64,000 nucleotides of DNA, from positions 1-64,000 of the forward strand of contig NZ_RCIV01000003.1 of NCBI RefSeq assembly GCF_003666605.1. Reading direction: 5' to 3'. Shown in pieces: positions 13,966 through 38,335 of this stretch. The position numbers were made by a program, and so were the translations under genes. The DNA comes from Propionibacterium australiense. GTDB taxonomy: Bacteria > Actinomycetota > Actinomycetes > Propionibacteriales > Propionibacteriaceae. A model generated the notes under the pieces. The model was not told the DNA's origin and ran no database searches. It saw nothing but the letters and a program-made list of their open reading frames with translations. Positions within the stretch are counted from its first letter, which is position 1, and every line of letters begins with the position of its first letter.

Positions 13966-14406
13966 ATGAGCGCTGAGAGGTCCACGACCCAGGACACCAA
14001 GACGCCCCCGCGCAATACACGGCAGCGTCGGCTCATCAAGCAGACCCTCGGCGAGGGCCGGGACTTCAGGACCGCCCAGCAGCTGCACGCCGAGCTGGTC
14101 ACGGCCGGCGAGCACGCATCGCTGGCCACCGTCTACCGTGTCCTCAACTCGCTGGCCGACACGGGCGAGGTGGACACCTGGCGCACGCCGGAGGGCGAGA
14201 TGGCCTACCGGCGTTGCCTGACGATCCGCCACCACCACCACCTGATCTGCCGTGACTGCGGCCGAACCGTCGAGGTCAGCGGCGGCCCGGCCGAGAAGTG
14301 GGCCGAGTCGATCGCGTCCGAGCACGGTTTCATCAGGCCCGAGCACCACGTCGAGATCTTCGGCACCTGTACCGAGTGCGCCGCCCGGGAATCCGGCGCG
14401 GGGTGA
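13966..14406 (+). CDS. zur: Fur-family repressor, probably Zur
   Basis: A protein of 146 residues. It has an N-terminal winged helix (FRTAQQLHAELVTAGEHASLATVYRVLNSL), then the metal site HHHHLICRDCGRTVEV and the second cysteine pair CTEC that builds the structural zinc site. The start is ATG 13966, behind GAGAGAAAGG. An upstream in-frame start at 13933 lacks a ribosome site. Its position as the last gene of a zinc-uptake cluster makes Zur much more likely than Fur or a peroxide sensor. Confidence 0.87.
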   Translation: MSAERSTTQDTKTPPRNTRQRRLIKQTLGEGRDFRTAQQLHAELVTAGEHASLATVYRVLNSLADTGEVDTWRTPEGEMAYRRCLTIRHHHHLICRDCGRTVEVSGGPAEKWAESIASEHGFIRPEHHVEIFGTCTECAARESGAG

Positions 14407-14556
14407 ACCGCTGGGTGCGCACCAGCGCCACCAGCGAACCGGGCCCGTCGATCGCCCTCGCCCAACGGGGCATCCGATGCGGGAGCCCCCGAATGGGGCC
14501 GTCGTGCCCGCCGTGGGACGCCAGGGGATAAGGGGATAAGATCAGCACAACAGAAC

Positions 14557-14656
14557 ACATCACCTTTGCGAGGGAAGCCGGTGAGAAACCGGCGCTGACG
14601 CGCAACCGTGAGCCAGGCTCCGCCCTGGCGAGTCGGAATGCTCGCTCTGGTGATCC
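14557..14656 (+). promoter_or_regulatory. Cobalamin riboswitch
   Basis: The conserved core is readable: GGGAAGCCGGTGAGAAACC then GGCGCTG, CGCAACCGTGAG, a GCCAGG/CCTGGC hairpin and GAGTCGGAATGCTCGC, the counterpart of the B12-box 3' half. A closing P1 helix pairs ATCACC (14559-14564) with GGTGAT (14649-14654). It is compact compared with enteric examples. It lies on the plus strand 73 bp upstream of a recombinase-like gene, and no cobalamin biosynthesis or transport gene follows. Alternative hairpins between it and the start codon are described separately. Confidence 0.85.
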
Positions 14657-14684
14657 GGCCCTTCTACCGCTGTCGCGAATGCAT

Positions 14685-14730
14685 CGGTGACCGTGATGTC
14701 ACCGTGCTCTGCAGCGAAAGGATGACATCA
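14685..14730 (+). promoter_or_regulatory. Candidate riboswitch expression platform (two mutually exclusive hairpins)
   Basis: CGGTGAC (14685-14691) can pair with GTCACCG (14698-14704). Alternatively TGATGTCA (14694-14701) can pair with TGACATCA (14723-14730), which covers the spacer between AAAGGA and the ATG, including the A of the start codon. The two pairings share bases and exclude each other. That is the arrangement of a translational on/off switch. Inferred by eye; no folding energy was computed. Confidence 0.5.
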
Positions 14731-15629
14731 TGAGCGCCACGACCTGGCAACTCGACGAACCCCGCGAAGGCGGGTCGGGTTCCGCACCGTCCCTCCATCT
14801 CCTGCCGGCCACGCAGATGTCCCACCGCCTGGACAGCTATCTGCACGTCTGGCTCGCCACCCGCGCCGGAACCGTCGCCGACAAGACCCTCCGCACCGAT
14901 CAGGACCTGCTCCGCCTGATCCCGCAGTCCTGCCTGAGCCAGGACCCCCGCGCCCTCACCCAGCCGGCCGTGAGCCGGCTTCTCGCGCACTTCCGTTCCC
15001 GTGGTCTCAGCGAACTCTCGGTGCGTCGCTACCGCGCCAGCCTGTCCTCCTTCTTCAGCTGGCTGCGCAACCAGGGTGTCATCGACAGCTCGCCGATGCC
15101 CCAGCAGTCATCCGATCAGCCGGCCAGGCAGACCACCACGGCGATGCCGTTCACCGCAGCCGAGCTGCACGCGGCCTTCCGGCTGTGGCAGGCCCGGGAC
15201 CGCCGCCTCGCACTGGTCATGCTCGTCCTGGCCCACACCGGTCTGCGCTGGGCCGAGGCACGCGCCCTGCTCGTCTCGGACGTGCATCTGCGTGAGGGCC
15301 GTCTCATCGTGCGCCGGTCCATGCCCGAGGGCGTGAGTACTCGTGAGTTCAGTCCCGAGTTGATTCGCCGTGTGCCGCTGTCGAAGTGCGCGACCCGTGC
15401 GCTGGCCGAGCTCACTGCCGGGGCCCGCCCGGACCAGCTGGCCATGACGACCGACCGGGGCTGTCAGCTGCACCGCACCTCGGTGCTGCGCGCCCTGGAC
15501 TGGCCGCACACCGGGCAGGGCCGCCGCCTCGTCGACCTGCGTCACACCGCGGCCCAGCTGTGGCTCGACTGCGGTCACTCCCCCGCTCAGGTGCGCGGCT
15601 GGATGGGGCACAGCCTCATCACCGGCTGA
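14730..15629 (+). CDS. Tyrosine-recombinase-like protein lacking the catalytic tyrosine
   Basis: A protein of 299 residues. Residues ~30-120 are a SAM-like core-binding domain (SVRRYRASLSSFFSWLRNQG), and the C-terminal half is an integrase fold. The first arginine is kept (HTGLRWAEARAL), as are the second arginine and the late histidine (LRHTAAQLW, GWMGHS). The usual HxLR histidine is valine (LVDLRHT). The protein ends right after GHSLITG, where the nucleophilic tyrosine would follow some ten residues later. No tyrosine occurs in the next codons in any frame. A good ribosome site (GAAAGGATG) and a hairpin close behind argue for an expressed gene. It should bind DNA but not cut it. It is preceded by a cobalamin riboswitch. 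Confidence 0.8.
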   Translation: MSATTWQLDEPREGGSGSAPSLHLLPATQMSHRLDSYLHVWLATRAGTVADKTLRTDQDLLRLIPQSCLSQDPRALTQPAVSRLLAHFRSRGLSELSVRRYRASLSSFFSWLRNQGVIDSSPMPQQSSDQPARQTTTAMPFTAAELHAAFRLWQARDRRLALVMLVLAHTGLRWAEARALLVSDVHLREGRLIVRRSMPEGVSTREFSPELIRRVPLSKCATRALAELTAGARPDQLAMTTDRGCQLHRTSVLRALDWPHTGQGRRLVDLRHTAAQLWLDCGHSPAQVRGWMGHSLITG

Positions 15630-15655
15630 GTTCCCGCATGACCGCACCCGGAGAT

Positions 15656-15690
15656 GCCGGGGCCGGTGCGCAGAACGCACCGGCCCCGGC
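15656..15690. terminator. Bidirectional hairpin between the recombinase-like gene and the MFS gene
   Basis: A perfect 15-bp stem GCCGGGGCCGGTGCG with loop CAGAA. It starts 26 bp after the recombinase-like stop and ends 15 bp before the stop of the convergent transporter gene, so it can end both transcripts. Confidence 0.85.
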
Positions 15691-15705
15691 CATCGTGGTG
15701 ACTGG

Positions 15706-17055
15706 TCATTCGACCATGTCCTGGCTCCTGAGCTCGGGCAGGAACAGGGCGGAGACGGCCGCGATGACGAAGCTCACCGCGAAGACGACGAAGACCAGTG
15801 CATAACCGCCCTGCAGGATGAACGGCACGACGAGGGGAGCGATGATGCCAGCCACCCGGCCCACGGCCGAAGCGGCTCCCGTCCCGGCCCCGCGCAGTGC
15901 GGTCGGGTAGATCTCGGGTCCGATCGCGTACAGGGCGCCCCAGGCACCCAGGTTGAAGAAACTGAGCGCGCAACCGGCGATCATGATGCCAGACGCGCCG
16001 GATTGCAGGCCGAACGCCACGGCCGAGATCCCCGATGCCAGGAGGAAGCTCGCGAGGGTTGGGCGCCTGCCCCAGCGCTCGATGAGCCAGGAGGCCACCG
16101 CATAGCCGGGGAGCTGGGCGAGTGTGATGACCAGTGTGTACCCCATGGAGTGGACCAGTGAATGTCCCTGGCGGTAGAGCAGGGTCGGCATCCAGGTGAA
16201 GGCGCCGTAGTAGCTCAGGTTGACGAAGAACCAGACCAGCCACAGCGCGATCGTCGAGCGGCGATGGGCCGGTGCGAGCAGCGATCGGGCGCCCACCCCC
16301 TTCGGGGACGTGCTGAGCGGCGTGCCGGTGATCGCCCTCGCCTCATCCGTCTCGGGCTCGACGCCGGCCGACCGCTCGAAGACACGCACCGAGGCCTCCG
16401 CCTGGTCGAGGCGACCAACCGACTCGAGGAAGCGCACGGACTCGGGCAGGCCGTGTCGGACGACGAGCGCATAGGCGGTCGGGACGATGCCCACCAGCAG
16501 GGCCCAGCGCCAGCCGGGCCAGCCACCGATGCTCCGCGGCACGAGGAAGTAGCCGAGCAGGGCGGCCAGGATCCAGCCCAGTGCCCAGAAGCTCTCCAGC
16601 CAGACGACCATGCGCCCTCTGATGCGCTGCGGGGCGAACTCGCTGACCAGGGTCGAGGCGACGGGCAGCTCGGCGCCCAGGCCGAGTCCGACGATGAGGC
16701 GCAGGACGATGAGCATGGCCACGCCGGTGGAGAAGGCCGCGGCACCGGTTGCGATGCCGTAGACGAGCAGGGTCATGGCGAAGACGTTCCGCCGCCCCAG
16801 CCTGTCGGCGAGCAGGCCGCCGACGGAGGCACCGATCATCATGCCGACGAAACCGATCGAGCCGATCCAGCTGAGTTGTCCGTTCGAGAGCCCCCACTGA
16901 GCGGCCAGGGCTGTCATGACGTAGCTGATGAGGCCCACGTCCATCGCGTCGAGGGCCCACCCGATGCCGGATCCGACGAGCAGCTTGCCGTGCTCGGGCG
17001 AGAAGCGCAGGCGGTTGAGCCGTTCGGCTCGTGTCGGTGGTTCTCCGGTGGTCAT
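15706..17055 (-). CDS. Major facilitator superfamily metabolite:proton symporter
   Basis: A protein of 449 residues with about twelve membrane helices. It has the MFS loop signatures GGLLADRLGRRNVFA and ERWGRRPT and the sugar/acid-symporter style APQRIRGRM. Overall form resembles the aromatic-acid/niacin (AAHS/SV2-like) group; the substrate is not determinable. The ATG at 17055 has GAAGGAG seven bases upstream. The in-frame extension to 17238 is not protein-like. A GGGCGGGT hairpin (17073-17091) sits just before the ribosome site in its leader. Confidence 0.82.
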   Translation of the reverse strand: MTTGEPPTRAERLNRLRFSPEHGKLLVGSGIGWALDAMDVGLISYVMTALAAQWGLSNGQLSWIGSIGFVGMMIGASVGGLLADRLGRRNVFAMTLLVYGIATGAAAFSTGVAMLIVLRLIVGLGLGAELPVASTLVSEFAPQRIRGRMVVWLESFWALGWILAALLGYFLVPRSIGGWPGWRWALLVGIVPTAYALVVRHGLPESVRFLESVGRLDQAEASVRVFERSAGVEPETDEARAITGTPLSTSPKGVGARSLLAPAHRRSTIALWLVWFFVNLSYYGAFTWMPTLLYRQGHSLVHSMGYTLVITLAQLPGYAVASWLIERWGRRPTLASFLLASGISAVAFGLQSGASGIMIAGCALSFFNLGAWGALYAIGPEIYPTALRGAGTGAASAVGRVAGIIAPLVVPFILQGGYALVFVVFAVSFVIAAVSALFLPELRSQDMVE

Positions 17056-17280: not shown

Positions 17281-18429
17281 TCAGTCGTCCACCGGGGCGG
17301 GCTCGGTTCCTTCCTGCTCGACGTCCTGGTTCCCGCCCGCCGAGGGCAGGGACTTGCCGAAGAGGAGCAGCACCAGGGCGACAGCGGTGATGCCGCCGAC
17401 GGCCTTGCCGACGATGACCGGGACGATCATCGTGCGTTCCGCGCCCGCGACGAAGCCCAGGTGGTCGCCGAACATGAAGGCCGCGCTCACTGCGAAGGCC
17501 GCATTGACCACCTTTCCGCGGGCATCCATGTCCTTGAAGATCTGGAACATCGGGATGTTGTTGGCCAGGGTGGCGATGAAACCTCCGGCCGCCGACTCGT
17601 TGATCCCGATGAGCCGGCCGATCCTGCCGAGCGGTTTGCCGAGCAGCTTGATGATGAGGTGCACCGCGGGGAAGGCGCCCATGAGCATCATGGCGATCGA
17701 GGCAACGATGGAGAAGCCCTCCGTGACGGGAGTGAGTTCCCAGCCCGCGGGCATGACCTGCACCCCGGTCATGAACTCGAAGACGCCGATGGCCAGGCCG
17801 ATGGTGATGACGACCACGAGGATCCTGCCGAAGACCTCGAACCCGCGGGTCATCTTGTCGGGGAAGCGCCACAGGCCGAGGGCGATGAGGATGGCGAAGA
17901 TGATGATCGGCACCAGGTTTCGCAGGATCATGACGGGGCCGTACCCGGCGACGACACCGCCGACGAAGACGCCGACCGGGACGGTGACGACACCGGCAAG
18001 AATGCCCTTGGACAGATAGCCGCGGTCCTCCTTCTCGATGATGCCCAGCGCCACGGGGATCGTGAAGACGATCGTCGCGCCCATCATTGAGCCGAGGATG
18101 AGGCCGGACAACTCGGCGACCTCAGGAGTGGCGGACATCTCCTGCGCCAGTGGCCAGCCGCCCATGTCGATGGCGAGCAGTGTCCCGGCGAACATGCCGG
18201 GATCCGCGCCGAACAGCTGGAAGACGGGGTTGATCACCGGGTTCAGGATCTTCGCCAGGTCAGGCGCCAGGCACACGATGCCGACCATGGAGATCGACAA
18301 CGGGCCCATTGCGTTGAGACCCTCCTCGAACTGCTCGCCGAGGCCGAGCTTGTTGCCGATCATCCGGTCGATTGCGCCGAGCAGCATGCAGATCATCAGG
18401 ATCCACACGATGACTTCATTGGCGTCCAT
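17281..18429 (-). CDS. eutH: Ethanolamine permease EutH
   Basis: A protein of 382 residues with about ten hydrophobic segments that matches EutH throughout, for example ILNPVINPVFQLFGADPGMFAG, DMGGWPLAQEM and FGDHLGFVAG. It moves ethanolamine across the cytoplasmic membrane, which matters most at low pH or low ethanolamine. It is the last gene of the eut part and is separated from eutQ by a 230-bp stretch. No propanediol facilitator (pduF) accompanies it. Confidence 0.93.
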   Translation of the reverse strand: MDANEVIVWILMICMLLGAIDRMIGNKLGLGEQFEEGLNAMGPLSISMVGIVCLAPDLAKILNPVINPVFQLFGADPGMFAGTLLAIDMGGWPLAQEMSATPEVAELSGLILGSMMGATIVFTIPVALGIIEKEDRGYLSKGILAGVVTVPVGVFVGGVVAGYGPVMILRNLVPIIIFAILIALGLWRFPDKMTRGFEVFGRILVVVITIGLAIGVFEFMTGVQVMPAGWELTPVTEGFSIVASIAMMLMGAFPAVHLIIKLLGKPLGRIGRLIGINESAAGGFIATLANNIPMFQIFKDMDARGKVVNAAFAVSAAFMFGDHLGFVAGAERTMIVPVIVGKAVGGITAVALVLLLFGKSLPSAGGNQDVEQEGTEPAPVDD

Positions 18430-19299: not shown

Positions 19300-19336
19300 C
19301 TCACTCACTCCGATCGCTCACTGGCCGGGGATGGAA

Positions 19337-19639: not shown

Positions 19640-19918
19640 TGTGGTACTCCTTCTCCTGTGTGCCGAGGGGCGGCCCACCGCCCCTGTCGTCTGCTCTGTT
19701 TCGTTCGTCTGCGCCGCGGACGGGTCCCCTCCGGCCGGAGAGATTCCCGCCGCCTGGGACCCGGGGTCTTGCCCCGAGGCCTTCTCGGCCGCAACGACCC
19801 CCGAGCCGTCCGCAGCCGCGTCCTCACCGGGCTGCCTGGGTCTACCCGTCCTCTGCCCGGTGAGCCCGGTGGACGGCGGTCCTGGATCGGTCGTCATCGG
19901 TTCTCGACTCCCCCACGC

Positions 19919-21400: not shown

Positions 21401-21427
21401 GTCATCACTCCTTTGCACCCGGACGCC

Positions 21428-26522: not shown

Positions 26523-27938
26523 TCAGCGCACGGACAGGCTGCCCTTGAGAACACAGCGGCGGCGGCGGGCGAAGTTCCGGGCCGAGGTCAGGCCCTCGCC
26601 CGTCGGGCCGGCGATGGTGAAGGTCGGGTAACCCTCACCCCCGATGCCGATGCCGTTGTAGGACGGGCCGTTCTTCACGAAGATCGTGGTCTGGATCCTC
26701 TTGCCCATCTTGGTCAGGGCCTTGACGTCGAGCGAGTGCATGATGGCGGTGTGGCGGTTGCCGTGCTCGGCCTCGACGGCCTTGTCGATGGCCTCGTCGA
26801 CGTTCTTGACACGGACGACGCCGAGGATCGGCATCATGAGCTCGGTCTGGACGAAGGTGTGCTCGAAGGGAACCTCTGCGATGAGCAGGCGGGTGCTCTC
26901 GGGCACCTCCATGCCCGCCTCGGCGGCGAGCACGCAGGCCGGCTTGCCCACCCACTTGGCGACGGCGTGGCCGTCCTTGGCGACGAAGGAGGCGAGCCTG
27001 GCGATGACGGCGGGGTCCTTGACCTCGACGGCACCGTGCTTGAGCATCTCGAACTTGAGCAGATCGGCGATCGAGTCGACCGCGATGACCTCCTTCTCGG
27101 CGGTGCAGGGCAGGTTGTTGTCGAAGCTGGCGCCGTCGACGATGTCCTTGGCGGCCTGCGGGATGTCGGCTGTGGCGTCGACGACGACCGGCGGGTTGCC
27201 GGCGCCCGCCCCGATGGCCTTCTTGCCACTGGACAGGACCGACTTCACGATGCCGGGACCACCGGTGGCGACGAGCAGGCGCACCTTGGGGTGCGCCATC
27301 ATGGCGTTGGTGTTCTCGATCGAGGGCTTCTCGACGGTGGTGATGAGATTGGCGGGGGCGCCGACCTCGGCCAGGGCCTTGTTGATCCTGCGGATCAGCC
27401 AGTGGGTGAGCCCGGTGGCACGCGGGTGCGGACTGAAGACCACGGCGTTTCCGGCGGCCAGCATGCCGATCGAGTTGTTGATGACCGTCTCGGACGGGTT
27501 GGTGGTCGGGGTGATCGCGCCGATGACCCCGAAGGGCGAGAACTCGATGGTGGTCAGGCCGTCGTCCCCGCTCCAGGCCTCGGTGACGATGTCCTCGACG
27601 CCGGGGGTCTCCAGGGCGGCGTAGCGGTTCTTGAGGTACTTGTCATGGGCGTTGCCCATGCCGGTCTCCTCGACGGCGGCCTCGGCCATGTACCTGAGGG
27701 CCTCGTCATCGGAGCAGACGTTGCGGATGGTCTGGATGTAGCACTTGCGGTCGCGCATCGAGCAGTCGAGGTACTGGCGCCAGGCCTTGTCGGCCGCCTC
27801 GACGGCGTCGTTCATGTCGGCGAAGATGCCATCGCCGAGACAGTTCCCGGTGACGATCCGCCCGCTGGCCTGCCGCGCGACGACCTCCTGCACGGTCTCA
27901 CGAACGACCTTCGAAATGAGTTCAGGGCTGATGGTCAT
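26523..27938 (-). CDS. pduP: CoA-acylating propionaldehyde dehydrogenase PduP
   Basis: A protein of 471 residues that converts propionaldehyde to propionyl-CoA in the shell lumen. The catalytic cysteine is in ASFDNNLPCTAEKEVI; other family sequences are TPTTNPSETVINNSIGML and LLVATGGPGIVKSV. The N-terminal helix (SPELISKVVRETVQEVV), followed by a linker, is the classic PduP encapsulation peptide. Its ATG overlaps the pduO stop as ATGA. It closes the operon before the hairpin at 26467. No pduL follows to turn propionyl-CoA into propionyl phosphate. Confidence 0.95.
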   Translation of the reverse strand: MTISPELISKVVRETVQEVVARQASGRIVTGNCLGDGIFADMNDAVEAADKAWRQYLDCSMRDRKCYIQTIRNVCSDDEALRYMAEAAVEETGMGNAHDKYLKNRYAALETPGVEDIVTEAWSGDDGLTTIEFSPFGVIGAITPTTNPSETVINNSIGMLAAGNAVVFSPHPRATGLTHWLIRRINKALAEVGAPANLITTVEKPSIENTNAMMAHPKVRLLVATGGPGIVKSVLSSGKKAIGAGAGNPPVVVDATADIPQAAKDIVDGASFDNNLPCTAEKEVIAVDSIADLLKFEMLKHGAVEVKDPAVIARLASFVAKDGHAVAKWVGKPACVLAAEAGMEVPESTRLLIAEVPFEHTFVQTELMMPILGVVRVKNVDEAIDKAVEAEHGNRHTAIMHSLDVKALTKMGKRIQTTIFVKNGPSYNGIGIGGEGYPTFTIAGPTGEGLTSARNFARRRRCVLKGSLSVR

Positions 27939-28996
27939 GAACGGCTCTCCTTCTGGGCTGTTGCTAGTGCATGCGTGATGATCGACTCGTCCTGGTCCGG
28001 CGTGCCGCCGGAGGCGCCGATGCCCCCGGCCAGCTCGCCATCGACGAAGACCGGGAAGCCTCCCCCGAAGACGACCACGCGACCGTCGTTGAAGTTCTGG
28101 ATCCCTGGGATGGGCCCGCCGGGTCCGGAGAGATCCTTGAGTTCGGCGGTGGGCTGCCCGAAGGCGGCAGCGGTGAACGCCTTGTTCTGGGCCGCCTCGA
28201 TGCTGACGAGCAGCGAACCGGCCATGCGTTCCAGCAGCATCAGGTTGCCGCCCGCATCGACCCCGGCGAAGACGCAGGGCACACCGATCTCGGTGGCCTT
28301 CTGCTCAGCCGCCTCGGCCATGAGCTTCAGCGTGGCCAGGTCGTACCGCGGCAGGTCGTGGGGACCCAGGGTGCCGCTTCCGGCCGGGGTGGTGGACCCG
28401 GCGAGGACGGCAGCGCCCTCGGGCGTACCGAGCGCACGCGCGACGGTCTCGAGCACGACCTGTTCCACACGGTCCATGTCGTGGTGGTGCTCGGCCAGGC
28501 GGGCCAGCGCGAAGAGCGCGTCGGACAGACGATTGAGGTAGGTGATGATCTCGGGGCGGATGCTGTCGGACTCGGTGGCTATCAGCACGCGGCGTTCGGC
28601 GCGCCGCACGACGGTGCGGGCGCGGTGGAGGATGCCGGAGATCGGGTCGCGGCCGGGGACGACGAAGTTGCGCTGGGGGCCGGTGACGGCCAGGCACTCG
28701 TCGATGAGGCGCTCGAGTTCGGTGACGTCGTCGGCGCCGATCTTGTTGTCGAGGATCTCGCGGCCTGCTGCGTCGCTGGCCAGTTCGGCGGCCAGCGTGA
28801 ACATGCGCTGCTGGATGTGGTGCAGCGTGGCGCGGATCGCGGGATCGGTCATCGCAGCCTTGGCCTCGCCGATCGTGGAGTTGGCCTCGTCAACGGTGCC
28901 GTAGGCCTCGACGAGCGGAGACTGCTTGGCGACCCGGGTACCGCCGAACAGGCCTGTCATGCCCTTGTCCCCGCTGCGGGTGTAGATGTTGGGCAT
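27935..28996 (-). CDS. pduO: Corrinoid adenosyltransferase PduO (with heme-binding-type C-terminal domain)
   Basis: A protein of 353 residues. Residues 1-~190 are the ATP:cob(I)alamin adenosyltransferase: YTRSGDKGMTGLFGG near the start, the ATP site VVPGRDPISGILHRARTVVRRAERR and YLNRLSDALFALAR. Residues ~205-353 are the PduOC/HbpS-like domain (LKLMAEAAEQKATEIGVPC, GIQNFNDGRVVVFGGGFPV). It makes adenosylcobalamin for PduCDE and EutBC, as no eutT is present. Six bases separate it from pduN. Confidence 0.94.
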   Translation of the reverse strand: MPNIYTRSGDKGMTGLFGGTRVAKQSPLVEAYGTVDEANSTIGEAKAAMTDPAIRATLHHIQQRMFTLAAELASDAAGREILDNKIGADDVTELERLIDECLAVTGPQRNFVVPGRDPISGILHRARTVVRRAERRVLIATESDSIRPEIITYLNRLSDALFALARLAEHHHDMDRVEQVVLETVARALGTPEGAAVLAGSTTPAGSGTLGPHDLPRYDLATLKLMAEAAEQKATEIGVPCVFAGVDAGGNLMLLERMAGSLLVSIEAAQNKAFTAAAFGQPTAELKDLSGPGGPIPGIQNFNDGRVVVFGGGFPVFVDGELAGGIGASGGTPDQDESIITHALATAQKESRS

Positions 28997-29001
28997 GCTG
29001 A

Positions 29002-29274
29002 TCAGGCTCCCCCGAGTTCGACGGTGTCAACGATGCCGACGATCGTGGAGTCGATCGGCGAGTCGGCGCGGGATGCCGCGAAGCGGGCCGAGGAGCCCTT
29101 GGTGACGATGACGGTGGCGCCGATGCCTGCGCCGACGGTGTCGACAGCGATCTCGGGACGGCTGATGGGCTTCTCGTCGGCGTCGATGGGTTGCACCAGG
29201 AGCAGTTTGAAACCGACCAGGCGTTCGTCCTTGCTGGTCGAGACGACGGTGCCGCGCACCGTGGCGAGGAACAT
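29002..29274 (-). CDS. pduN: Pentameric shell vertex protein PduN/EutN
   Basis: A protein of 90 residues of the EutN/CcmL family. It starts MFLATVRGTVVSTSKD and continues GFKLLLVQPID and AVDTVGAGIGATVIVTKGSSAR, ending in GIVDTVEL. Pentamers cap the shell vertices. The ATG lies two bases after the stop of the flavoprotein gene. It is the only vertex gene in the locus, so it must serve both enzyme sets. Confidence 0.94.
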   Translation of the reverse strand: MFLATVRGTVVSTSKDERLVGFKLLLVQPIDADEKPISRPEIAVDTVGAGIGATVIVTKGSSARFAASRADSPIDSTIVGIVDTVELGGA

Positions 29275-29276
29275 TG

Positions 29277-30131
29277 TCAGGCCTCCCTGATGATCGTGAT
29301 GGAGCGGGCAGCAGCGATGTCCGCGGCCATGGCGGTGATCTTCGCGGTGGCCGGGACCCGGAGCGCCGTGCCCTCGGGCAGGCGCTGGACGACGCGCTGG
29401 CTGATGAGCTGCTGCTGGACTGCGACGGCGCCGGACGCCGAGACGGGTACCGGGACGGTCGGCGCCGGGGGCTTGGCGGCCGTGGCGGCGGGTGCCGGGC
29501 AGGCGCCGAGCCGGCGCAGCAGCTCGTGCCGGCTCATCCGGCAGGCCGTGGTGATCGGGGAGATCCTCGCGTGATCGATGCGCTCGTAGGCGGCAAGCAC
29601 GGTGCGGGCCAGGGCGCTGGCCCGAGCGGTGCGCACGCCGAAGCTGCGGAGCGTGCAGAGATTCTCCCGCATCATCTGGGCGTAGCCCTCCGGAATCGCG
29701 CCGAACCACCGCTGCTTGTCGGGGTCATCCGGATCGCAGGCGGACGACGAGACGACGACTGGCTTGCCGGCCAGCAGATAGTCGTTCATGAGATTGCTCC
29801 CCAGGCAGTCCGCCACGCCGTGCGCCGTCTTCGCCGCGATGTTCTGGGTGAGGGTCGGCACGATGAGCATGTCGTGGCTGCCGGTCAGCTGCCTCGTGGC
29901 GGCGCTCATCCCCAGAGCACCGATCAGCTCCTGGTCGAGGATGCGTTCGGCGCTCGGTGTCTGGACGAACTCGAGCGCGACGCCCTCCTTGAGGAGCATG
30001 GCGAGTTCGGGGATCGTCTTCTCGAAACCGATCAGCGCTCCGGTGAACAGCACGAGGGCACGGCGGGGAGCCGGGGTCACCAGCTCGGCAAGAGTGCTGC
30101 GGATGACTGCGCGCAGATCATCGGCGTTCAT
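29277..30131 (-). CDS. Microcompartment-associated flavoprotein with EutQ-like C-terminal module
   Basis: A protein of 284 residues. The N-terminal helix DDLRAVIRSTLAELV looks like an encapsulation peptide. Residues ~25-180 are a Rossmann-like flavoprotein domain of the kind seen in phosphopantothenoylcysteine decarboxylases (LVLFTGALIGFEKTIPEL, LIVPTLTQNIAAKTAHGVAD). An Ala/Pro linker leads to a C-terminal module (QQQLISQRVVQRLPEGTALR...ITAMAADIAAARSI) like the N-terminus of EutQ and of PduM. It occupies the usual pduM position before pduN. The redox role is unknown; recycling of the cobalamin or NAD cofactor is a guess. It shares a TGATG junction with eutJ. Confidence 0.65.
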   Translation of the reverse strand: MNADDLRAVIRSTLAELVTPAPRRALVLFTGALIGFEKTIPELAMLLKEGVALEFVQTPSAERILDQELIGALGMSAATRQLTGSHDMLIVPTLTQNIAAKTAHGVADCLGSNLMNDYLLAGKPVVVSSSACDPDDPDKQRWFGAIPEGYAQMMRENLCTLRSFGVRTARASALARTVLAAYERIDHARISPITTACRMSRHELLRRLGACPAPAATAAKPPAPTVPVPVSASGAVAVQQQLISQRVVQRLPEGTALRVPATAKITAMAADIAAARSITIIREA

Positions 30132-30973
30132 CAGTGAATCTCCTTTGCCGTCATCGGAATGCCCAGCGGGGTCACGAACAGGGGTTCGACCGGCCGCAGG
30201 ACCGGTCGGCCCAGACGCGCGGCGAAGACATCGGGGGCGTTGGGGAAGGAACTGGAGCCGCCCACCAGGTAGACGATGGGCACGTCGATCCCCTCGAGGG
30301 CGCACTCGGCGATCGAGGCCATCTTGTCGAGCGTGGGGCGGATGATGCCCACCACCTCGTCACGGCGGGACGGGTCCTTCTTCATGACCTCGGCCTCGTC
30401 ATAGGGCATCTGGTAGGCGCCCGACAGCACGAGTGTCATGTGGTGCCCGCCGGTCGGCTCGTCGACGGACAGGCTCACCCGGCCCTGCTCCAGGACCGAG
30501 ACCCCGGTGGTGCCGTGACCGATGTCGATGACGCAACCATCGGTGATGCCGAGCGCACGGGCCGCGGCGACCGGCTCGTCGACGACCTCGGCGACGTCCA
30601 GGTCAGCAGCGACCACGACGTTCTCGAAGACCTTGACGTCACCCGCACCGATACCCGGCGGGATCGACACCGAGGCCTTGTCGAAGCGGTGTCCCAGACG
30701 GTCCTGCACGTCCCTGGCGAGCTCGCGCACCGCGCTGGTGGCACCGAGCCAGTCGACGACGACACCATCCCGGACGACCGTCGAGTGCACCCACCCCCCG
30801 GCAACGGGACGGTCCGCGGCGTCGACCACAGACACGACGATGTTGGCGGTGCCGAGATCGACGCCGAGCCGCAGCTCGCCCTCGTAGTCCTCGACATCGC
30901 CCGTGCGCACGAGCTCGGCGAACCGCTGGATCAACCGTTCTCGTTCCGACAGTGCCGTCGTGTCCGTGGTCAT
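30131..30973 (-). CDS. eutJ: Actin/Hsp70-like chaperone EutJ
   Basis: A protein of 280 residues with two actin-like phosphate loops, RLGVDLGTANIVVSVVDA and GCVIDIGHGTTGVSVLEQ, and the later motif YLVGGSSSFPNAPDVFAARLG. It matches EutJ, thought to help assemble or maintain the enzymes of the compartment. It is placed in the pdu part here. The ATG at 30973 follows GAGGC; the upstream frame to 31027 has no better start. Confidence 0.92.
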   Translation of the reverse strand: MTTDTTALSERERLIQRFAELVRTGDVEDYEGELRLGVDLGTANIVVSVVDAADRPVAGGWVHSTVVRDGVVVDWLGATSAVRELARDVQDRLGHRFDKASVSIPPGIGAGDVKVFENVVVAADLDVAEVVDEPVAAARALGITDGCVIDIGHGTTGVSVLEQGRVSLSVDEPTGGHHMTLVLSGAYQMPYDEAEVMKKDPSRRDEVVGIIRPTLDKMASIAECALEGIDVPIVYLVGGSSSFPNAPDVFAARLGRPVLRPVEPLFVTPLGIPMTAKEIH

Positions 30974-31091
30974 CGTTGCCTCATCTGATCCGTTGGGTGG
31001 GACCGCGGCCGTGTTCGGCCGGTGCACCGGTCGCCCCTGCGTTGAACCGCCTCAGGCGGGCTGGCTTCTCATCCGTCCTCGATGGTCGGCC

Positions 31092-31370
31092 TCAGCCCTG
31101 CTTCGGCAGCAGCTTCTCCACGTCGCTGTGCGGACGCGGGATCACGTGGCGCGAGATGACTTCCTCGCCCACGTTCGTCGCTGCCGTGTACCCGGCGTCG
31201 ACGGCGGCCTTGACCGCACCGACATCGCCGCGCACCATCACGGTCACCAGCCCGGCACCGACCTTCTGGTAGCCGATCAGCGTCACATTGGCGGCCTTCG
31301 TCATGGCATCGGCGGCCTCGACGGCTCCGATGTAACCCTTGGTCTCGATGAGACCGAGTGCTTCACCCAT
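31092..31370 (-). CDS. pduJ: Hexameric shell protein PduJ
   Basis: A protein of 92 residues, one BMC domain: [40 protein letters not shown] and [15 protein letters not shown]. It is a main facet tile, close to PduA (37948) and EutM (19337) of the same locus. ATG 31370 has GAGGAGGG upstream. A 118-bp gap separates it from eutJ, longer than most gaps in this operon. Confidence 0.93.
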
Positions 31371-31388
31371 GGTTCTTCCCTCCTCTGG

Positions 31389-31982
31389 TTATTTCTTCTC
31401 GGCCTGCGGCTTGTCGTCGCCGGCAGACGTCTTCCTCTGACTGGACGAACGGCTGCTCGTCCGCCTGGCGCCGTCCTTGCCCGCCGCAGCAGGCGACTTC
31501 TTCACATCGGCGGCCACCTCGTGCTCGGCGGCCTGCTCCGATGGCGCCTGGCCGGTCTCGGCGGCCTGTTCCGGTTCGGCAGCAGGCTCCGGCCCGGCGG
31601 GCGGTGTGCTCTCGGCAGCAGGCTCCGGCCCAGCCGCCTGCTTGCTCTTGGCGGCCTGCTTGGCGGCCTGGTCCACCGAGGTGGGGGCACCGAGGCCGAC
31701 GGTGGCCGGGGACAGCACGACGCCGCCGAGCTGCGGATTGGGACGCGGGATCACCGAGACAGCGAAGACCGTCGACACCCGTGCGGCGGCCGCCCGGGCA
31801 GCGGCGATGGCCGACTGGACGGAGGAGACCTGGCCCTCGATCTTGACGGTGACCATGCCGGCCCCGTCCGTGGTCTCGTAGCCGATGAGCCGGACGTCCG
31901 CGGCCTTCACCGCGACATCGGCGGCCTCGATGGCCGCCGGGAGACCGAGGACCTCGATCTCGCCCAGGGCGTTCGTGAGCAT
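31389..31982 (-). CDS. pduK: PduK/EutK-like shell protein with long disordered, basic C-terminal tail
   Basis: A protein of 197 residues. Residues 1-~92 are a BMC domain (ALGEIEVLGLPAAIEAADVA, DGAGMVTVKIEGQVSSV, SVIPRPNPQLGG). The rest is a low-complexity Ala/Glu/Pro stretch with repeated GPEPAAE units, ending in an Arg/Ser/Lys-rich tip (ARRTSSRSSSQRKTSAG). Salmonella PduK carries an iron-sulfur tail instead, and E. coli EutK a helix-turn-helix; neither is seen here. The tip could bind nucleic acid or other lumen proteins. ATG 31982 sits behind GAAGGAG. Confidence 0.72.
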   Translation of the reverse strand: MLTNALGEIEVLGLPAAIEAADVAVKAADVRLIGYETTDGAGMVTVKIEGQVSSVQSAIAAARAAAARVSTVFAVSVIPRPNPQLGGVVLSPATVGLGAPTSVDQAAKQAAKSKQAAGPEPAAESTPPAGPEPAAEPEQAAETGQAPSEQAAEHEVAADVKKSPAAAGKDGARRTSSRSSSQRKTSAGDDKPQAEKK

Positions 31983-31992
31983 TGTGTCTCCT

Positions 31993-32352
31993 TCACTCAT
32001 TGGTGACCACGATCAGTGGCATGCGTTTGACGAGTCGTGCCGCATTCGCGCCCATGTCGCGGACGTGTGTCCGGGCCGCGTCGACGTCGAGCGTGATGTA
32101 GGGCCTGGCGGGGTCGAGTTTCTCCGTCGTGATGACGATCTGCCGGGTGCTGAGGCCGACGCCCACACCCAGCCGGGAGGCCAGCGCGGCCTCGTGGGCC
32201 AGCACGGCGGCGTCGGAGGACTCGCCGCGTGTCACCAGGTGCGGGACGCCCTCCTCCTCCATGCCGAAGCCGATCTGCTCGATGATCTCGGCGCTCGCGC
32301 TCGAACTGGCTCTGATGCCGATGGTCGGCCTCTCCTGCTCGACGGGTCTCAT
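31993..32352 (-). CDS. pduH: Diol dehydratase reactivase small subunit PduH
   Basis: A protein of 119 residues resembling the beta subunit of diol dehydratase (IGFGMEEEGVPHLVTRG, VGVGLSTRQIVITTEKLDP), as known for DdrB/PduH, which swaps with the dehydratase subunit during reactivation. The start overlaps the pduG stop as ATGA. The C-terminus overlaps an alternative start of pduK (ATG 32000). Confidence 0.93.
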   Translation of the reverse strand: MRPVEQERPTIGIRASSSASAEIIEQIGFGMEEEGVPHLVTRGESSDAAVLAHEAALASRLGVGVGLSTRQIVITTEKLDPARPYITLDVDAARTHVRDMGANAARLVKRMPLIVVTNE

Positions 32353-34163
32353 GACTGGTCCTCCCAGGAGAGCACCAGTCCGGTGGCAACGGCGTTGCGC
32401 GGGCCCTCGGTGCCACGGATGTTGGCCCGCCCTGCGACGACGCGGTACTCGCCGAGCGCCTTGGTGACGAGCTGCGGGATCTCGAAGTCCAGGGCCGAGC
32501 CACCGACCAGGACGACATGGGCGATGTCGCGCACGTTGCGAGTGGGGCTCACCGAGGCCAGGGCCCGCAGGGCATTTGTCACGAAGACGCGTTCCTTGGC
32601 GCGGATGCGAACCTGGCGGATGACCTCCAGCGGCTGCCGCAGGGGCAGCGGGATCATGCCCTCGGGATGAAGGATGACGGTGCGCGCGAACAGCTCGGGT
32701 GCGAGCGGCTCGTCGAAGAACTGGGCGGTGCCGTCCTCGTGACGGATGTTGAACAGCGTCTCGACACGGGCCAGCGGGTAGCGCTTGATGTTCTCGGCGA
32801 CATCGGTGCCCTCCAGCCCGAGTTCGGAGGCGATGAGCAGCGTCACCATGTTGCCGGCGCCGGCCAGGTGGATCGAGGTGGCCCTGTCGCCGTCGCGCAG
32901 CACCGAGGCGTCGGTGGAGCCGGCACCCATGTCGAGGATGGCGATGGGCCTCGACGTGCCGGGCGTGGTCAGCGCACCGCGAATGGCCATGTCGGCCTCG
33001 ACCCCGCCGATCTCGACGCGGATGCCGAACTGCTTGGCCATGTCATCGGCAATGCGCTGCATCTGCAGGCGATCGGCCTTGACCATGACGGCGATGCCAA
33101 CGGCGGCCTCCAGGGAGAACTCGCCGGCCAGGCCGCCGGTGACGGACTGGGGAACCTGGGTGTCGACGGCGAGGAGGTCGGTGATCTCGACGCCGGAGGG
33201 GTCGCGGTCGGTGAGCTGGCCCATCGTGACGCGGACCTTCTCCATCATGCCGCCGATGTTCGTGCCCGGCTCACCCTTGATGTCCTGCAGGAGCCCAGCC
33301 TGAGCGCCGACGCGCATGATCTCGTCGGCACCGGCCTCGACGTCGACGTCCGTGCTGCGTTCGCCGATGAAGTGCAGGGTGCCCGCCGGGATGTGCCGTT
33401 CGGTAACGTCACCGGCCGGGGTCTTGATGACCACGGCGGAGCGGTTGCCGACCAGGGCGCGCGCCATCGGGACGACCGAGGCGGTCTCGGACGGGGAGAG
33501 CTCGAAGAGCGTGGCGATGCCGTAGGGGTTCGACAGCGTCTCGATCACGCGGCCGGCCTCGGCCACCTCGATCGCCGCCGGCATGCCCGTGGGCACCTTG
33601 TCGATGAGCCTGACCTCGTCGATGATGGGGATCTTGCGCTCGAGACGGTTGTTGACGAGGACGCCGTCGTCGAGCTGCAGGATCGCACCGGTGATCCTGA
33701 CGCGACCGGCGTGCGCGTTGATGAGTTCGGCCACGGCTCGGAAACCGTGGGTGCGGTCGGCGACGACGATGTACGACTCCCCCGCCCTGGCGAGTTCGAG
33801 GTCATCGACCCTGATCGTCGTGCCGACCGCGACACCGAGCCCGCCGGGCGTGGCGGGATTGTGCCCGATCATGGTTGACTCGGTGATGATCGTCTCGGAG
33901 ATCGTCTCCATGGCCACATCGCCGATCACCGGTGCGGCCTCGTTGATGCGGATCAGATCGAGTTCGCCGATCTCCCGACCCGCCTTCTTGAGGGCGACGG
34001 TGAGCGCCTGGAACACGCCCTGGGTGTTCTGGGGCGTGCCCTTGATCCCTGTCGTCGGGATGGTCGACGCGGACAGGAACCGCGGGGTGGCACCGTCAGA
34101 GACTTCTGCCAGTGCCACCTCCGTGGTGGCGTTGCCGATGTCGACGCCGGCGATGAGGGCCAT
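32349..34163 (-). CDS. pduG: Diol dehydratase reactivase large subunit PduG
   Basis: A protein of 604 residues, an Hsp70-like ATPase. It has the phosphate loop IAGVDIGNATTEVALAEV, the second loop AILDMGAGSTDASVL and VVLVGGSALDFEIPQLVT. With PduH it exchanges inactive cyanocobalamin-like cofactor for free adenosylcobalamin using ATP. The length equals that of known DdrA/PduG. It is 45 bp downstream of pduE with GGAGATTCG before the ATG. Confidence 0.95.
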   Translation of the reverse strand: MALIAGVDIGNATTEVALAEVSDGATPRFLSASTIPTTGIKGTPQNTQGVFQALTVALKKAGREIGELDLIRINEAAPVIGDVAMETISETIITESTMIGHNPATPGGLGVAVGTTIRVDDLELARAGESYIVVADRTHGFRAVAELINAHAGRVRITGAILQLDDGVLVNNRLERKIPIIDEVRLIDKVPTGMPAAIEVAEAGRVIETLSNPYGIATLFELSPSETASVVPMARALVGNRSAVVIKTPAGDVTERHIPAGTLHFIGERSTDVDVEAGADEIMRVGAQAGLLQDIKGEPGTNIGGMMEKVRVTMGQLTDRDPSGVEITDLLAVDTQVPQSVTGGLAGEFSLEAAVGIAVMVKADRLQMQRIADDMAKQFGIRVEIGGVEADMAIRGALTTPGTSRPIAILDMGAGSTDASVLRDGDRATSIHLAGAGNMVTLLIASELGLEGTDVAENIKRYPLARVETLFNIRHEDGTAQFFDEPLAPELFARTVILHPEGMIPLPLRQPLEVIRQVRIRAKERVFVTNALRALASVSPTRNVRDIAHVVLVGGSALDFEIPQLVTKALGEYRVVAGRANIRGTEGPRNAVATGLVLSWEDQS

Positions 34164-34208
34164 GGGACGAATCTCCTGTGACGTTGGGGTGACCTCGGCG
34201 AGCAGCTG

Positions 34209-34751
34209 TCACTCGCTGTCCTTGAGGCGGCCGCGCTTCTCGTAGACGTCGGCCCCCTCTCGGATGAAGGCCGCGTTGATGGTGCAGCCGTAGTCCTTCT
34301 CCAGCTTGTCGGCGATGGCGTACAGCTCGGCCTTGGTCGAGCGGTACGGACGCAACGCGTTGTAGACCTCGAGCAGCTCGTCGTCGGGGACGGCGATGAG
34401 CTCGGCGGCACGCCGCATGTTGCGCGCCAGTGAGTCACGGCCGTCGGACTCGGCCACCTGGGCCTGCAGCTCGAGGGTCTCGGGTGCGATGCGGAAGTCC
34501 TCGGCCTTGAGTTCGCCGTTCTTCACCTTCTCGAACGAGAACTCGGTGAGCGGGCGACCATTGGCGGCCTTGATCTTCTCCGGCACTTTCTCGCCGAGCG
34601 GGTACTGGGACTTGTCGACCCGGTCGGCCCGGGCCGGGGACGGTGCCGCAACAGCCGCGGCGGTGTCCTTCTTGGCGAAGGTCACGTTGTCCTGATTGAG
34701 GTTCGCCATGACCTCGCTCATGATCTGGCGGATCAGTTCTTCCGAATCCAT
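34209..34751 (-). CDS. pduE: Propanediol dehydratase small (gamma) subunit
   Basis: A protein of 180 residues that completes the B12-dependent diol dehydratase. The N-terminal helix DSEELIRQIMSEVMANL is an encapsulation-type peptide. The core includes KSQYPLGEKVPEKIKAANG, LTEFSFEKVKNGEL and AELIAVPDDELLEVYNALRP. It starts 8 bp after the pduD stop. Confidence 0.95.
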   Translation of the reverse strand: MDSEELIRQIMSEVMANLNQDNVTFAKKDTAAAVAAPSPARADRVDKSQYPLGEKVPEKIKAANGRPLTEFSFEKVKNGELKAEDFRIAPETLELQAQVAESDGRDSLARNMRRAAELIAVPDDELLEVYNALRPYRSTKAELYAIADKLEKDYGCTINAAFIREGADVYEKRGRLKDSE

Positions 34752-34759
34752 GGCTTCTC

Positions 34760-35446
34760 CTATCGGTACTCGACCCGAAGGGCCTGGGGCTTCTTGCTCA
34801 GATCGCAGAGGCCGGCTTCCTTGAGGTGGAACAATGCTGCGATGGCCTGGTACTTCGGACGGGCCATCTGGTCATTGCGCACCGGCACTGGATCGGGTGA
34901 CTCGCCCTTGGCGTAGCGGGCGGCGTTCTTGCCGATCGCACGGAACGTCTCCAGGTCGATCAGGGGCGCCTGGCTGAACAACTCGAGGTTGGACAGCGGA
35001 GGCAGATCCTTCTGGTGGATCACCGTGGTACCGCGGGACTGGATACCGATGCCAACGCCTGAACCGGAGTACTCCGCTGCGTCGTGGGCGATGAAGCCCA
35101 CGTCGGCCGTGCGGAAGATCCGGATGAAGCGGTAGCTCAGCCCCTCCTCCTCGATGCCGGCGCAGACCTCACGGATCACGTCGGCATGCGGCAGGTCGAT
35201 GATCGTCTTGTTCATGACGCCGCCGAAGGCGGGCGCGAGGGCGATGACGACCTCACGAGGATTGGTGCCACGCTCGGCCGGACCATCCTCGGTGACGACC
35301 AGTTCCTCGCCGTCGCCGAGCGGCTCGGCCGATGCCACGGTGGTGGCAGCGGCAGCCCGGGCCGGTGCGGACGCGACGGGGACCTGACCGCTGGTGAACT
35401 CGCTGACGACCTGTTCGATGATGCTACGGAGCGTCTTCTCATCCAT
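34760..35446 (-). CDS. pduD: Propanediol dehydratase medium (beta) subunit
   Basis: A protein of 228 residues. The first helix ([19 protein letters not shown]) plus an Ala/Pro linker is the encapsulation peptide. The beta-subunit core follows ([78 protein letters not shown]) and binds the cobalamin together with PduC. I start at ATG 35446, behind GAGGTGAGC; a GTG three codons upstream is possible. Confidence 0.95.
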
Positions 35447-35456
35447 GGTGCTCACC

Positions 35457-37118
35457 TCAGATGCTCTCAGGGCTGATGGCCTGGCGGATGTTCGACAACT
35501 GAGCCCACTTCTCGTCGCTGATCTGGTAGCCCGTGAGCGGACCAGCGTAGGTGTTGGGGTAGTTGACGGCGCTGATCACATGGAAGTTCTCGTCCAGGAT
35601 CGCCGAGGTGTGCAGGTAGTCGCCGGCGACGCGCTGGGTCAGCATGCTGTAGACGTACTCGGCGACGTCCTCGAATCCGCCGCGGATCAGGGCCTGGACG
35701 ATGTCGACACCGGTCAGGCCACGATTCATGAGATCCTCGGCGGCCTTGAGGTCCTCGACCACGTTGCGGACCGGCATGTCCTCGGAACCGCGGGCGTAGG
35801 TGGCGGCCTCGACCTCCTCGTCGGTGATCTCGGTCAGGCCGAGCTCACGGAAGATGGCCTGGATGGCACGAGCGGCCTTGTTGCGAACCCGGACGACCTC
35901 CTCCTCGGTGACGGGCACGAGGCCGCCATCGATCTTGAGATCGCGCTGGATGACCAGCCAGTCGTCGAAGTCGTCGGCGTCCCAGTTGGAGCCGGCGAAC
36001 ATGTTGTCGTAGTTCGGCGTGGCGGAGTAGCCCGAGCAGATGAAGTCCGTGCCGGGCACGAACTGCATGAGCGAGCGGGCGACACGGCGCAGGTCCGAGT
36101 GCGTGAAGGTCTGGTCGTTGGACGAGGCGCACTCCAGGTCGAGGCTGACCGCGATGAGGTTCTCGGCCAGGACCGCGCGAATACCACCGGGCACGGCAGC
36201 CGGAACGCCGATGCAGGACACCGAGCCGTTCTGGATGCCCTGCGAGCCGGCGCCCTTGGTGAAGTAGAGGCAGCGGGCCTCGAGGTACAGCATGGACTTG
36301 CCCTCGGCGTAACCCATCTGGACCTCGGAACCGGTGCCCGAGGTGAACCGCATCTTCAGGCCACGGGACGCGTAGCAGGAGGCCAGGAAGGCCTTCGACC
36401 ACGGGGTGTCGTCGCCGTCCATGAAGACCTGCTCGGTGCCGTACACCGACACGGTCTCGGCGTAGGCGGTGAAACCGCGCATGCCGAGGGCGAGCTCGGT
36501 GGCCTCCTCGACGGAGCACTGGGTGAGGATGCCCGGACGACCCACCTGGGAACCCACCATGTTGGCGATGGCGTTGAACGGCGCGTAGCGCACGATGCCG
36601 ACCGTCGTCTCCTCCTCGGCGAAGCCGCGCAGCGAGCCCTCTGCGGCGTCGGCGGCGATCTGCACCGGGTTGTCCTTGACGTTCGTCACGTGGGCCTGGT
36701 TCGCCGGGAACAGCCGTGAACGCATCTTCGTCACGGCCATCATCATCTCGAGCACGTTCATCGTCCCGACGACCTCGACCATCTTGGCGGGGGTCATGGC
36801 CGTCGTCAGCTTCACGACCTCGGAGCGCGGCACGCGGAAGTCGACCATCTTGCGGGCCAGCTCCAGCGAGGGGGTCGCGTTGACCTCCACCGCGTTCTCC
36901 AGACGAATGCCGTAGTCGGCGATGAAGGTGTCGATCATGTCGAACTCTTCACGCTTCTTGCCGTCGAGCTCGACGACCACACCGTTCTCGATCTTGATCG
37001 AGGGAGTGGGATCGGCCGGCGAGTTCATGGCGATGAGGCCCATCTCGGGCCACTCTTTCACATAACCGTCCTGGCTGACTGGACGTGCGTCCAGCGCCTC
37101 GAAACGCTTGCTTCTCAC
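35457..37118 (-). CDS. pduC: Propanediol dehydratase large (alpha) subunit
   Basis: A protein of 553 residues, the TIM-barrel catalytic subunit that turns 1,2-propanediol into propionaldehyde (and may take glycerol). Conserved stretches are [60 protein letters not shown] and [20 protein letters not shown]. Length and order agree with diol rather than glycerol dehydratases. The start is GTG 37118 with GAGGCG upstream. It lies 17 bp after pduB. Confidence 0.96.
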
Positions 37119-37135
37119 GAAAGACGCCTCGTTTC

Positions 37136-37933
37136 TCAGATGTACGGGGTGGTGGTCGACACGGGAGTATCGCCCATGGCGCCGAGCAGCCCGAGGCCGA
37201 CCTCACGGGCGGCGACGATGGCCTGGCGCACGGCGCCGGAGTCGCCGGTGAAGGCCGAGATGACCTCGTTGGAGTAGCTGGTGCCGCCGTTGCCCGGGCT
37301 GGAGTAGCCGATGACGTCGATCGTCGAGGCCTTGACCGCGGTGTCGGCCAGGACGACGCCGATGGCCGCCGGAGCCCCGACCGTGATGCCGAAGGACTTG
37401 CCGAGCGGTGCGCCGAAGGCCTTGTTCAGGGCGTAGGACGCCCGGGCCGTGTACTGGAACTCCAGGTGCCCGGCATCGTTGCCGTAGACGTCACCGAAGG
37501 TGCGCTCGAGTTCGCCGAGGGTCACCTCGACGGCGCGGCGCGCGTCGGAGACGTCCTCGGCGCCGAAGACGATGAGCGAGCCGTGGCCGGCGCCGCCCTT
37601 GGTGTCACGCGGGAGCTCGATCGAGATGATCTCGGTGTTGGTGGCCTTGACACCCTCGTCAGCGGCGAAGATGTGCGGACCGGCACCGGTGCGGTCACCG
37701 ATGATGCCGATCGAGCGGAACTTGGGGTCGATGCCCATCAGCTTGTGCAGCTGCGGGTCGACGTTGGGGATGACCAGACCGATGGTGTCGCCGAGCTCGG
37801 TGGCCCCCACGAACTGGGTGGCCTCGGGAACGGTGAGCTGACGCTGGACGGTGGGCGCCGCAGCGGGTTTGTCAGCGGAGATCTTGTTCATGACGGCCGA
37901 CATGATCTGGTCGACGAGCTGATCGTTAGCCAT
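37136..37933 (-). CDS. pduB: Trimeric tandem shell protein PduB
   Basis: A protein of 265 residues with two BMC domains (FVGATELGDTIGLVIPNVDP in the first; GAPAAIGVVLADTAVKASTI in the second). The N-terminal helix NDQLVDQIMSAVMNKISAD links shell to cargo in known PduB. Salmonella also makes a shorter PduB' from an internal start; internal ATG codons exist here at residues 11 and 15, but without an obvious ribosome site. It follows pduA by 14 bp. Confidence 0.94.
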   Translation of the reverse strand: MANDQLVDQIMSAVMNKISADKPAAAPTVQRQLTVPEATQFVGATELGDTIGLVIPNVDPQLHKLMGIDPKFRSIGIIGDRTGAGPHIFAADEGVKATNTEIISIELPRDTKGGAGHGSLIVFGAEDVSDARRAVEVTLGELERTFGDVYGNDAGHLEFQYTARASYALNKAFGAPLGKSFGITVGAPAAIGVVLADTAVKASTIDVIGYSSPGNGGTSYSNEVISAFTGDSGAVRQAIVAAREVGLGLLGAMGDTPVSTTTPYI

Positions 37934-37947
37934 TTTCGGTCAACGCC

Positions 37948-38229
37948 TCACTTCTGGTCGACGGACGGGAGGATCTTCTCCACATCGGTGTGGGGACGCG
38001 GGATGACATGGACCGAGACGAGCTCGCCCACGTTCTGCGCTGCGACGGCACCCGCGTCGGTGGCTGCCTTGACGGCACCGACATCGCCGCGGACGAGCAC
38101 GGTCACCAGGCCGGAACCGACCCGCTGGCTGCCGATGAGTACGACGTTGGCCGACTTGACCATTGCATCCGCGGCTTCAACAGCGGCGACGAAACCCTTC
38201 GTCTCCACCATGCCAAGGGCTTCTTGCAT
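37948..38229 (-). CDS. pduA: Hexameric shell protein PduA
   Basis: A protein of 93 residues, one BMC domain ([55 protein letters not shown]). PduA pores pass propanediol but retain aldehyde. First gene of the large minus-strand operon. ATG 38229 has GGAGGAG in front. It is strongly similar to PduJ and EutM here. Confidence 0.95.
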
Positions 38230-38320
38230 TCTGAACTCCTCCGTTGGACTTGATACGAGCCGCCATTGGCCACCCGGCCACGGGCGGGACATACCAAAAA
38301 CTTTAGGGCATGAATCCAGA

Positions 38321-38335
38321 GAGAAGGTCATTCAG
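38321..38335 (+). promoter_or_regulatory. Copy 2 of the shared eut/pdu motif
   Basis: GAGAAGGTCATTCAG on the plus strand, 14 of 15 bases identical to the minus-strand copy at 26324-26338. The first nine bases recur upstream of pocR (41966-41974). It lies 92 bp before the pduA start codon and 316 bp before eutS. Confidence 0.5.

Follow-up and report, generated by a model that had tools for sequence, protein, structure and literature searches.

The window, by which the whole analysed stretch of 64,000 nucleotides from Propionibacterium australiense (G000; 63 contigs, 3.0 Mb) is meant, carries on its forward strand a compact riboswitch aptamer of the cobalamin (AdoCbl) type (14559..14654), an expression platform (14655..14730) and a gene for a tyrosine-recombinase homologue without its catalytic tyrosine (14730..15629). 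The encoded protein of 299 amino acids (P0001) consists of a SAM-like N-terminal domain and a catalytic-fold domain that lacks the tyrosine helix. The gene starts with ATG at 14730 and stops at 15627-15629, and the start codon, considered well placed in the first-pass annotation of this DNA, is indeed preceded by a Shine-Dalgarno sequence (SD), AAAGGA, at 14717-14722 on the same strand. Further downstream, on the reverse strand, lies the pdu microcompartment operon (27935..38331), which encodes a pduO-like adenosyltransferase, an EutN/CcmL shell protein, the dehydratase reactivase, the small, medium and large subunits of diol dehydratase (large subunit at 35457-37118) and BMC shell proteins. 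Its last gene, a pduP-like aldehyde dehydrogenase gene (26523..27935, reverse strand), is conserved in relatives as the convergent neighbour of the riboswitch gene, and pocR (40611-41990) is found at the other end of the pdu block. The riboswitch gene and pduP are separated in this species by an MFS gene and by a eut block (17281-26236) that contains eutH, eutQ, a BMC shell gene, an aldehyde dehydrogenase gene and genes for EutC, EutB and EutA.

Few riboswitches are as common as those for cobalamin, which usually act on genes for transport, synthesis and isozymes. The B12 aptamer with an ATCACC/GGTGAT closing pair that had been read upstream of the gene is borne out by covariation and by orthologous leaders that pass the Rfam cutoffs: the closing stem is placed at 14559-14564 and 14649-14654, and it encloses the core GGGAAGCCGGTG (14572-14583), the L5 region GCTGACGCGC (14594-14603) and the 3' core GAGTCGGAATGCTCGC (14630-14645). 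Taken alone, the window leader is a doubtful riboswitch, and it is the comparison with its orthologues that settles the identity. No Rfam match passes the gathering cutoff in the 64-kb window; the leader matches RF00174 over 14506-14642 with 27.9 bits (E 3.4e-5 for 601 bases; gathering score 31.5), in an alignment that is slightly out of register relative to the closing stem, and it is the lowest-scoring of ten cobalamin-riboswitch candidates in a search across the whole genome. The Rfam scan suggested as a check in the first-pass annotation is therefore divided, with the window copy below the curated cutoff and six of the eight orthologous leaders at or above one (50.8 and 50.0 bits for RF01482, cutoff 50; 39.8, 39.2, 35.9 and 31.5 bits for RF00174, cutoff 31.5). 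In the alignment of the nine leaders, standard pairs make up 93.8% of the paired cells and both-sided changes occur in 13 pairs; none of 500 shuffles equals either measure, and the share of paired cells drops to 33-49% in slid controls. Judged by sequence and covariation, the leader RNA is a cobalamin riboswitch, and its ligand is predicted to be cobalamin/AdoCbl. It shares the core sequence, helices, covariation and place upstream of the SD with the known cobalamin riboswitches (CL00101: RF00174, RF01482), but it is compact, has its own 3' platform and has a recombinase homologue as its target, not a gene for transport, synthesis or an isozyme. Other short candidates are present in the same genome at G000:C1:191346-191471 (L008) and G000:C10:37783-37911, with 31.4 and 28.3 bits, at or below the Rfam cutoff. 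Also, compact cobalamin-type riboswitches at two further loci (L064 and L066) lie directly 5' of genes for secreted repeat-type proteins with signal peptides, which are possibly corrinoid-binding or adhesin-like.

The protein scores over cutoff for both PF00589 (33.5 bits, cutoff 27.1) and PF02899. Arg-I (TGLRW), Arg-II (DLRHT) and GHS are kept, the HxxR histidine is replaced by valine (LVDLRHT) and the frame terminates as GHSLITG-stop, before the tyrosine. All of this agrees with the earlier description, which overlooked that the catalytic lysine of the beta-hairpin, found as TKGRR in intact relatives, has also been lost. Compared with 52 intact relatives, the window protein retains both arginines but has no tyrosine, no lysine in the beta-hairpin and no HxxR histidine. 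A recent frameshift that hides the tyrosine was ruled out, since no remnant of the tyrosine tail occurs downstream in any frame in all nine orthologues discussed below. The AlphaFold model of P0001 has a mean pLDDT of 86, and its best Foldseek matches are recombinase-DNA complexes, namely Tn1549 Int (E 9.5e-14, TM 0.72) and also lambda Int and Cre; a sequence search of the PDB gave no match. By sequence and by model, the protein belongs to the tyrosine-recombinase fold superfamily. Judging from the absent tyrosine and lysine hairpin and from the histidine lost in most orthologues, it is not an active tyrosine recombinase. The fold, together with the genomic linkage, suggests that it may bind DNA.

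When 199 family genomes were searched with the protein and the leaders then inspected, the leader RNA and the tyrosine-less gene were found together in nine species from three genera of the Propionibacteriaceae. Four belong to the genus of the window (G000-G003), including Propionibacterium acidifaciens DSM 21887 (G002) and P. cyclohexanicum DSM 16859 (G001), one is Micropruina sp. KQZ13P-5 (G021), and the four of the third genus are MAGs, two of which are called Propionicimonas. G003 is presumably P. freudenreichii DSM 20271, as suggested by the absence of pocR and pduQ beside its pdu block (compare PMC8149966). The missing tyrosine and the preceding riboswitch, whose joint conservation had been raised in the first-pass annotation, are conserved together in all nine species, and the riboswitch, SD and start codon are conserved along with the open frame. 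Arg-I is present in all nine proteins and Arg-II in eight (G003 lost it); the lysine hairpin is lost, as is the HxxR histidine in most. In most orthologues, no more than about six residues separate the WxG motif from the stop, and the SAM-like domain is absent from five of the nine. In a one-genome-per-species scan, the seven riboswitch-bearing homologues are those that end 0-18 nt past the match, while every other readable homologue continues for at least 72 nt (a handful with internal stops or fragmentary sequence was left out). The nine proteins form one clade with an SH-aLRT of 100 when placed among the 52 intact integrases using a quick tree method, G003 being the most diverged copy; the co-segregation of RNA and gene therefore represents one event with joint retention and not nine independent events, and a Fisher value for this association is not to be taken as a probability. 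Nearest in the tree are actinobacterial phage- and ICE-type integrases (PF00589 and PF02899; for example L039, L012 and L095), whose homologous catalytic-fold domain is 42-47% identical. Unlike the window protein, these integrases retain the lysine hairpin, the HxxR histidine and the tyrosine, and a riboswitch was found at none of their loci searched.

The occurrence of the RNA subtype was followed with a covariance model made from the nine leaders (R1), which was scanned over the 199 family genomes. The nine leaders score 154-189 bits, high values that are expected because R1 was built from them, and the best match beyond them reaches 96 bits, in a tenth genome (L062 in G028). This match (1501-1683, reverse strand) precedes a gene on the same strand (364-1500) for a FecCD/BtuC-type ABC permease (PF01032, E 2e-85; FecCD alone cannot separate B12 from siderophore uptake). 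It shares the aptamer and the 3' platform with the nine recombinase-gene leaders, which is evidence from sequence that this platform serves other targets too. The other matches in the family score below 80 bits, and those inspected resemble ordinary compact cobalamin riboswitches in front of different genes. Outside the nine species, neither an R1 search of 397 genomes from the order nor the one-genome-per-species scan turned up a riboswitch-recombinase pair, and as far as searched the RNA subtype appears restricted to one family.

In the expression platform, a P13-like stem can form between CCGCTG (14667-14672) and GCAGCG (14711-14716), with a conserved (T/C)CGCG in L13. In our own assignment, this stem and loop are placed for an L5-L13 kiss, and the stem can extend as CCTT/AAGG across the SD. 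A platform hairpin (14685-14691/14698-14704) has bases in common with an alternative hairpin (14694-14701/14723-14730) that buries the SD and the start codon, so that the two are mutually exclusive; nor can the alternative hairpin coexist with the P13-like stem that is expected when ligand is bound. Across the leaders, each initiation region is more complementary to its own upstream strand than in permuted pairings (2 of 2000), and no terminator-like hairpin was found in 14380-15760. Control is thus likely translational, and the most likely polarity is OFF with ligand, although the polarity is uncertain because the SD can be occluded in both leader folds. Exclusion of the SD- and start-burying hairpin by the P13-like stem would fit the opposite polarity, in which AdoCbl favours this stem and turns the gene on; this is an unlikely arrangement, as in most leaders the CCTT of the P13 state can pair with the SD, and the same RNA subtype fronts an importer-type permease, for which repression by ligand is expected.

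In eight of the nine species, the riboswitch gene is located at the pduP end of a B12-dependent pdu locus. It stands tail-to-tail with pduP in six of them (G003, G021, G187, G179, G173 and G185), and in G002 the two are separated by about 4.4 kb that include an ABC-transporter ATPase gene. The first-pass annotation had tied the gene to the large B12-dependent locus nearby; such a link does exist, but across species it is the pdu operon with its terminal pduP, and not eut, that accompanies the gene. The eut genes were ruled out as a conserved partner, given that EutB is present in only four of the nine genomes and that, among the loci read, eut adjoins the riboswitch gene only in the window species. 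PduC was found in 46 of the 199 genomes compared with eight of the nine that carry the riboswitch gene (p 3.7e-5, without phylogenetic correction). The exception, P. cyclohexanicum, keeps the gene without PduC/diol dehydratase, and there (L085) it is followed by recO-, uppS- and leuA-like genes. The window has uppS- and leuA-like genes directly beyond its pdu/eut block (42383-46364 in the comparison with L085), and these flanking recO/uppS/leuA-like genes indicate that the block as a whole is absent from P. cyclohexanicum, through loss or because it was never acquired. Neither the RNA nor the gene is present at the family's remaining pdu loci that were examined (about 17 as far as pduP), and zur precedes the riboswitch gene solely in the genus of the window. 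As seen in these genome comparisons, the pdu linkage of the gene is new here.

Upstream of pduA, tandem boxes TTGCACnnnnnGGTC spaced 20-22 bp apart were observed in many Propionibacteriaceae, whether or not they carry the riboswitch gene: on the reverse strand in the window (about 38394), L193 (7891), L195 (3595-3631), L201 (1248-1285) and L216 (1243-1280), and on the forward strand in L197 (900-937). As a target of the protein, they were rejected because they also occur in pdu promoters that lack the gene; they are therefore more likely a PocR/AraC box, and probably represent the site of the AraC-type regulator PocR. A genome-wide search for the boxes showed no excess over a reversed control, and no target motif specific to the gene-bearing genomes was found.

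The alternative offered in the first-pass annotation, an orphaned riboswitch in front of a decaying integrase remnant, can draw on the progressive loss of the SAM domain and catalytic residues and on the diverged G003 copy, but it is contradicted by the selection analysis. Using GY94 with F3x4 frequencies, omega is 0.068 between G000 and P. acidifaciens (2dlnL 167 against omega = 1) and 0.10-0.14 in four further pairs, spanning 0.068-0.135 overall, compared with 0.077 and 0.042 for zur and 0.016-0.042 for pduP. Omega = 1 was rejected in all pairs tested, the deeper pairs being saturated and without a usable point estimate. The simpler NG86 values (0.27-1.0) gave the appearance of relaxed selection, an effect of saturation and GC bias at third positions. 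The protein is under purifying selection and is therefore not decaying; with frames open in all nine species, most stops at the same place and the riboswitch, SD and start codon conserved with the frame, decay was rejected and is now highly improbable. A single origin, purifying selection and a stable chromosomal place together mark the gene, on sequence grounds, as a domesticated (exapted) mobile-element gene.

Two other explanations accept this conservation and place the function elsewhere. Control could operate at the RNA level, the transcript forming an excludon that is antisense to the convergent pdu operon at its 3' end, in the manner of AspocR in Listeria, so that the frame matters mainly by being translated or not. 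The tail-to-tail arrangement in six species and the lack of a terminator-like hairpin would suit such an antisense role, and an antisense RNA is already known to connect a B12 riboswitch with pdu control (PMC8079631). It is nevertheless improbable, considering the strong purifying selection on the amino acid sequence, the translational appearance of the platform and the neighbour across the 3' end, which is not pduP in the window species, G002 or G001. Somewhat less improbable, yet still doubtful, is a non-catalytic partner that acts through protein contacts and, depending on B12 status, either poisons or modulates active integrases or Xer recombinases, or keeps hold of a different DNA-binding protein. 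Recombinases function in multimeric form, and the five orthologues that consist of the catalytic-fold domain alone may be short of DNA contacts. Interaction has also been proposed as a function of domesticated recombinases (PMC3212892). The conserved locus without a link to mobile elements argues against such a partner, and the place of the gene and its riboswitch point instead to B12 metabolism.

The reading preferred here, to which we assign a probability of about 90%, places a recombinase homologue that is catalytically dead but kept by selection under the control of a B12 riboswitch. In the proposed mechanism, several Propionibacteriaceae would descend from an ancestor in which an actinobacterial integrase gene came to stand downstream of a compact AdoCbl riboswitch; the integrase would then have lost its catalytic residues and been retained as a non-catalytic protein. 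Ligand binding would pick between leader folds that hide or expose the SD and start codon, most likely switching the gene off at high B12, and the protein would be made when B12 is scarce. It would then most likely bind DNA via the retained recombinase fold and hold down or otherwise adjust AdoCbl-dependent metabolism, in the first place the adjacent pdu operon. As a whole, the account of a domesticated integrase under translational AdoCbl control that serves as a B12-status regulator tied to AdoCbl-dependent metabolism, its target being deduced, falls a little short of an even chance. Points against it are that no DNA target was found, that the SAM-like domain is missing in five of nine orthologues and Arg-II in G003, that G001 has the gene without PduC and that most pdu loci of the family are without the gene. 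More tentative again is the specific proposal that this riboswitch-controlled, recombinase-derived and non-catalytic DNA-binding protein gates AdoCbl-dependent microcompartment metabolism as a protein counterpart of AspocR.

In Listeria monocytogenes, AspocR, a B12 riboswitch-controlled RNA antisense to pocR, ties pdu expression to cofactor supply (PMC8079631). The likeness lies in a B12 riboswitch tied to pdu and in propanediol use that follows cofactor supply (PMC8079631); AspocR, however, is an antisense RNA acting via transcription termination, whereas here a conserved protein, apparently under translational control, is found at the pduP end. By analogy, the logic of AspocR may be served here by a protein. 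The domesticated Crypton recombinases of animals (DUF3504, for example in KCTD1 and ZMYM2) are likewise conserved recombinase domains without the catalytic tyrosine and occur within transcriptional regulators (PMC3212892), but they are eukaryotic, of separate origin and fused to other domains, have all lost Arg-II and have no riboswitch. In the open-access literature, no report of a cobalamin riboswitch before a recombinase gene was found, and for P. freudenreichii, riboswitches are listed only for cbiL, cbiB and mutA (PMC5644110). The gene adds a conserved, pdu-linked target to those of the cobalamin riboswitches, one that encodes a new kind of protein for them, and a bacterial case of recombinase domestication that is open to genetic testing. 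In addition, the authors of a published pdu study in P. freudenreichii saw no annotated regulator in the vicinity of pdu locus 2 (PMC8149966), and the gene is a concrete candidate regulator for this locus of a B12-producing food bacterium.
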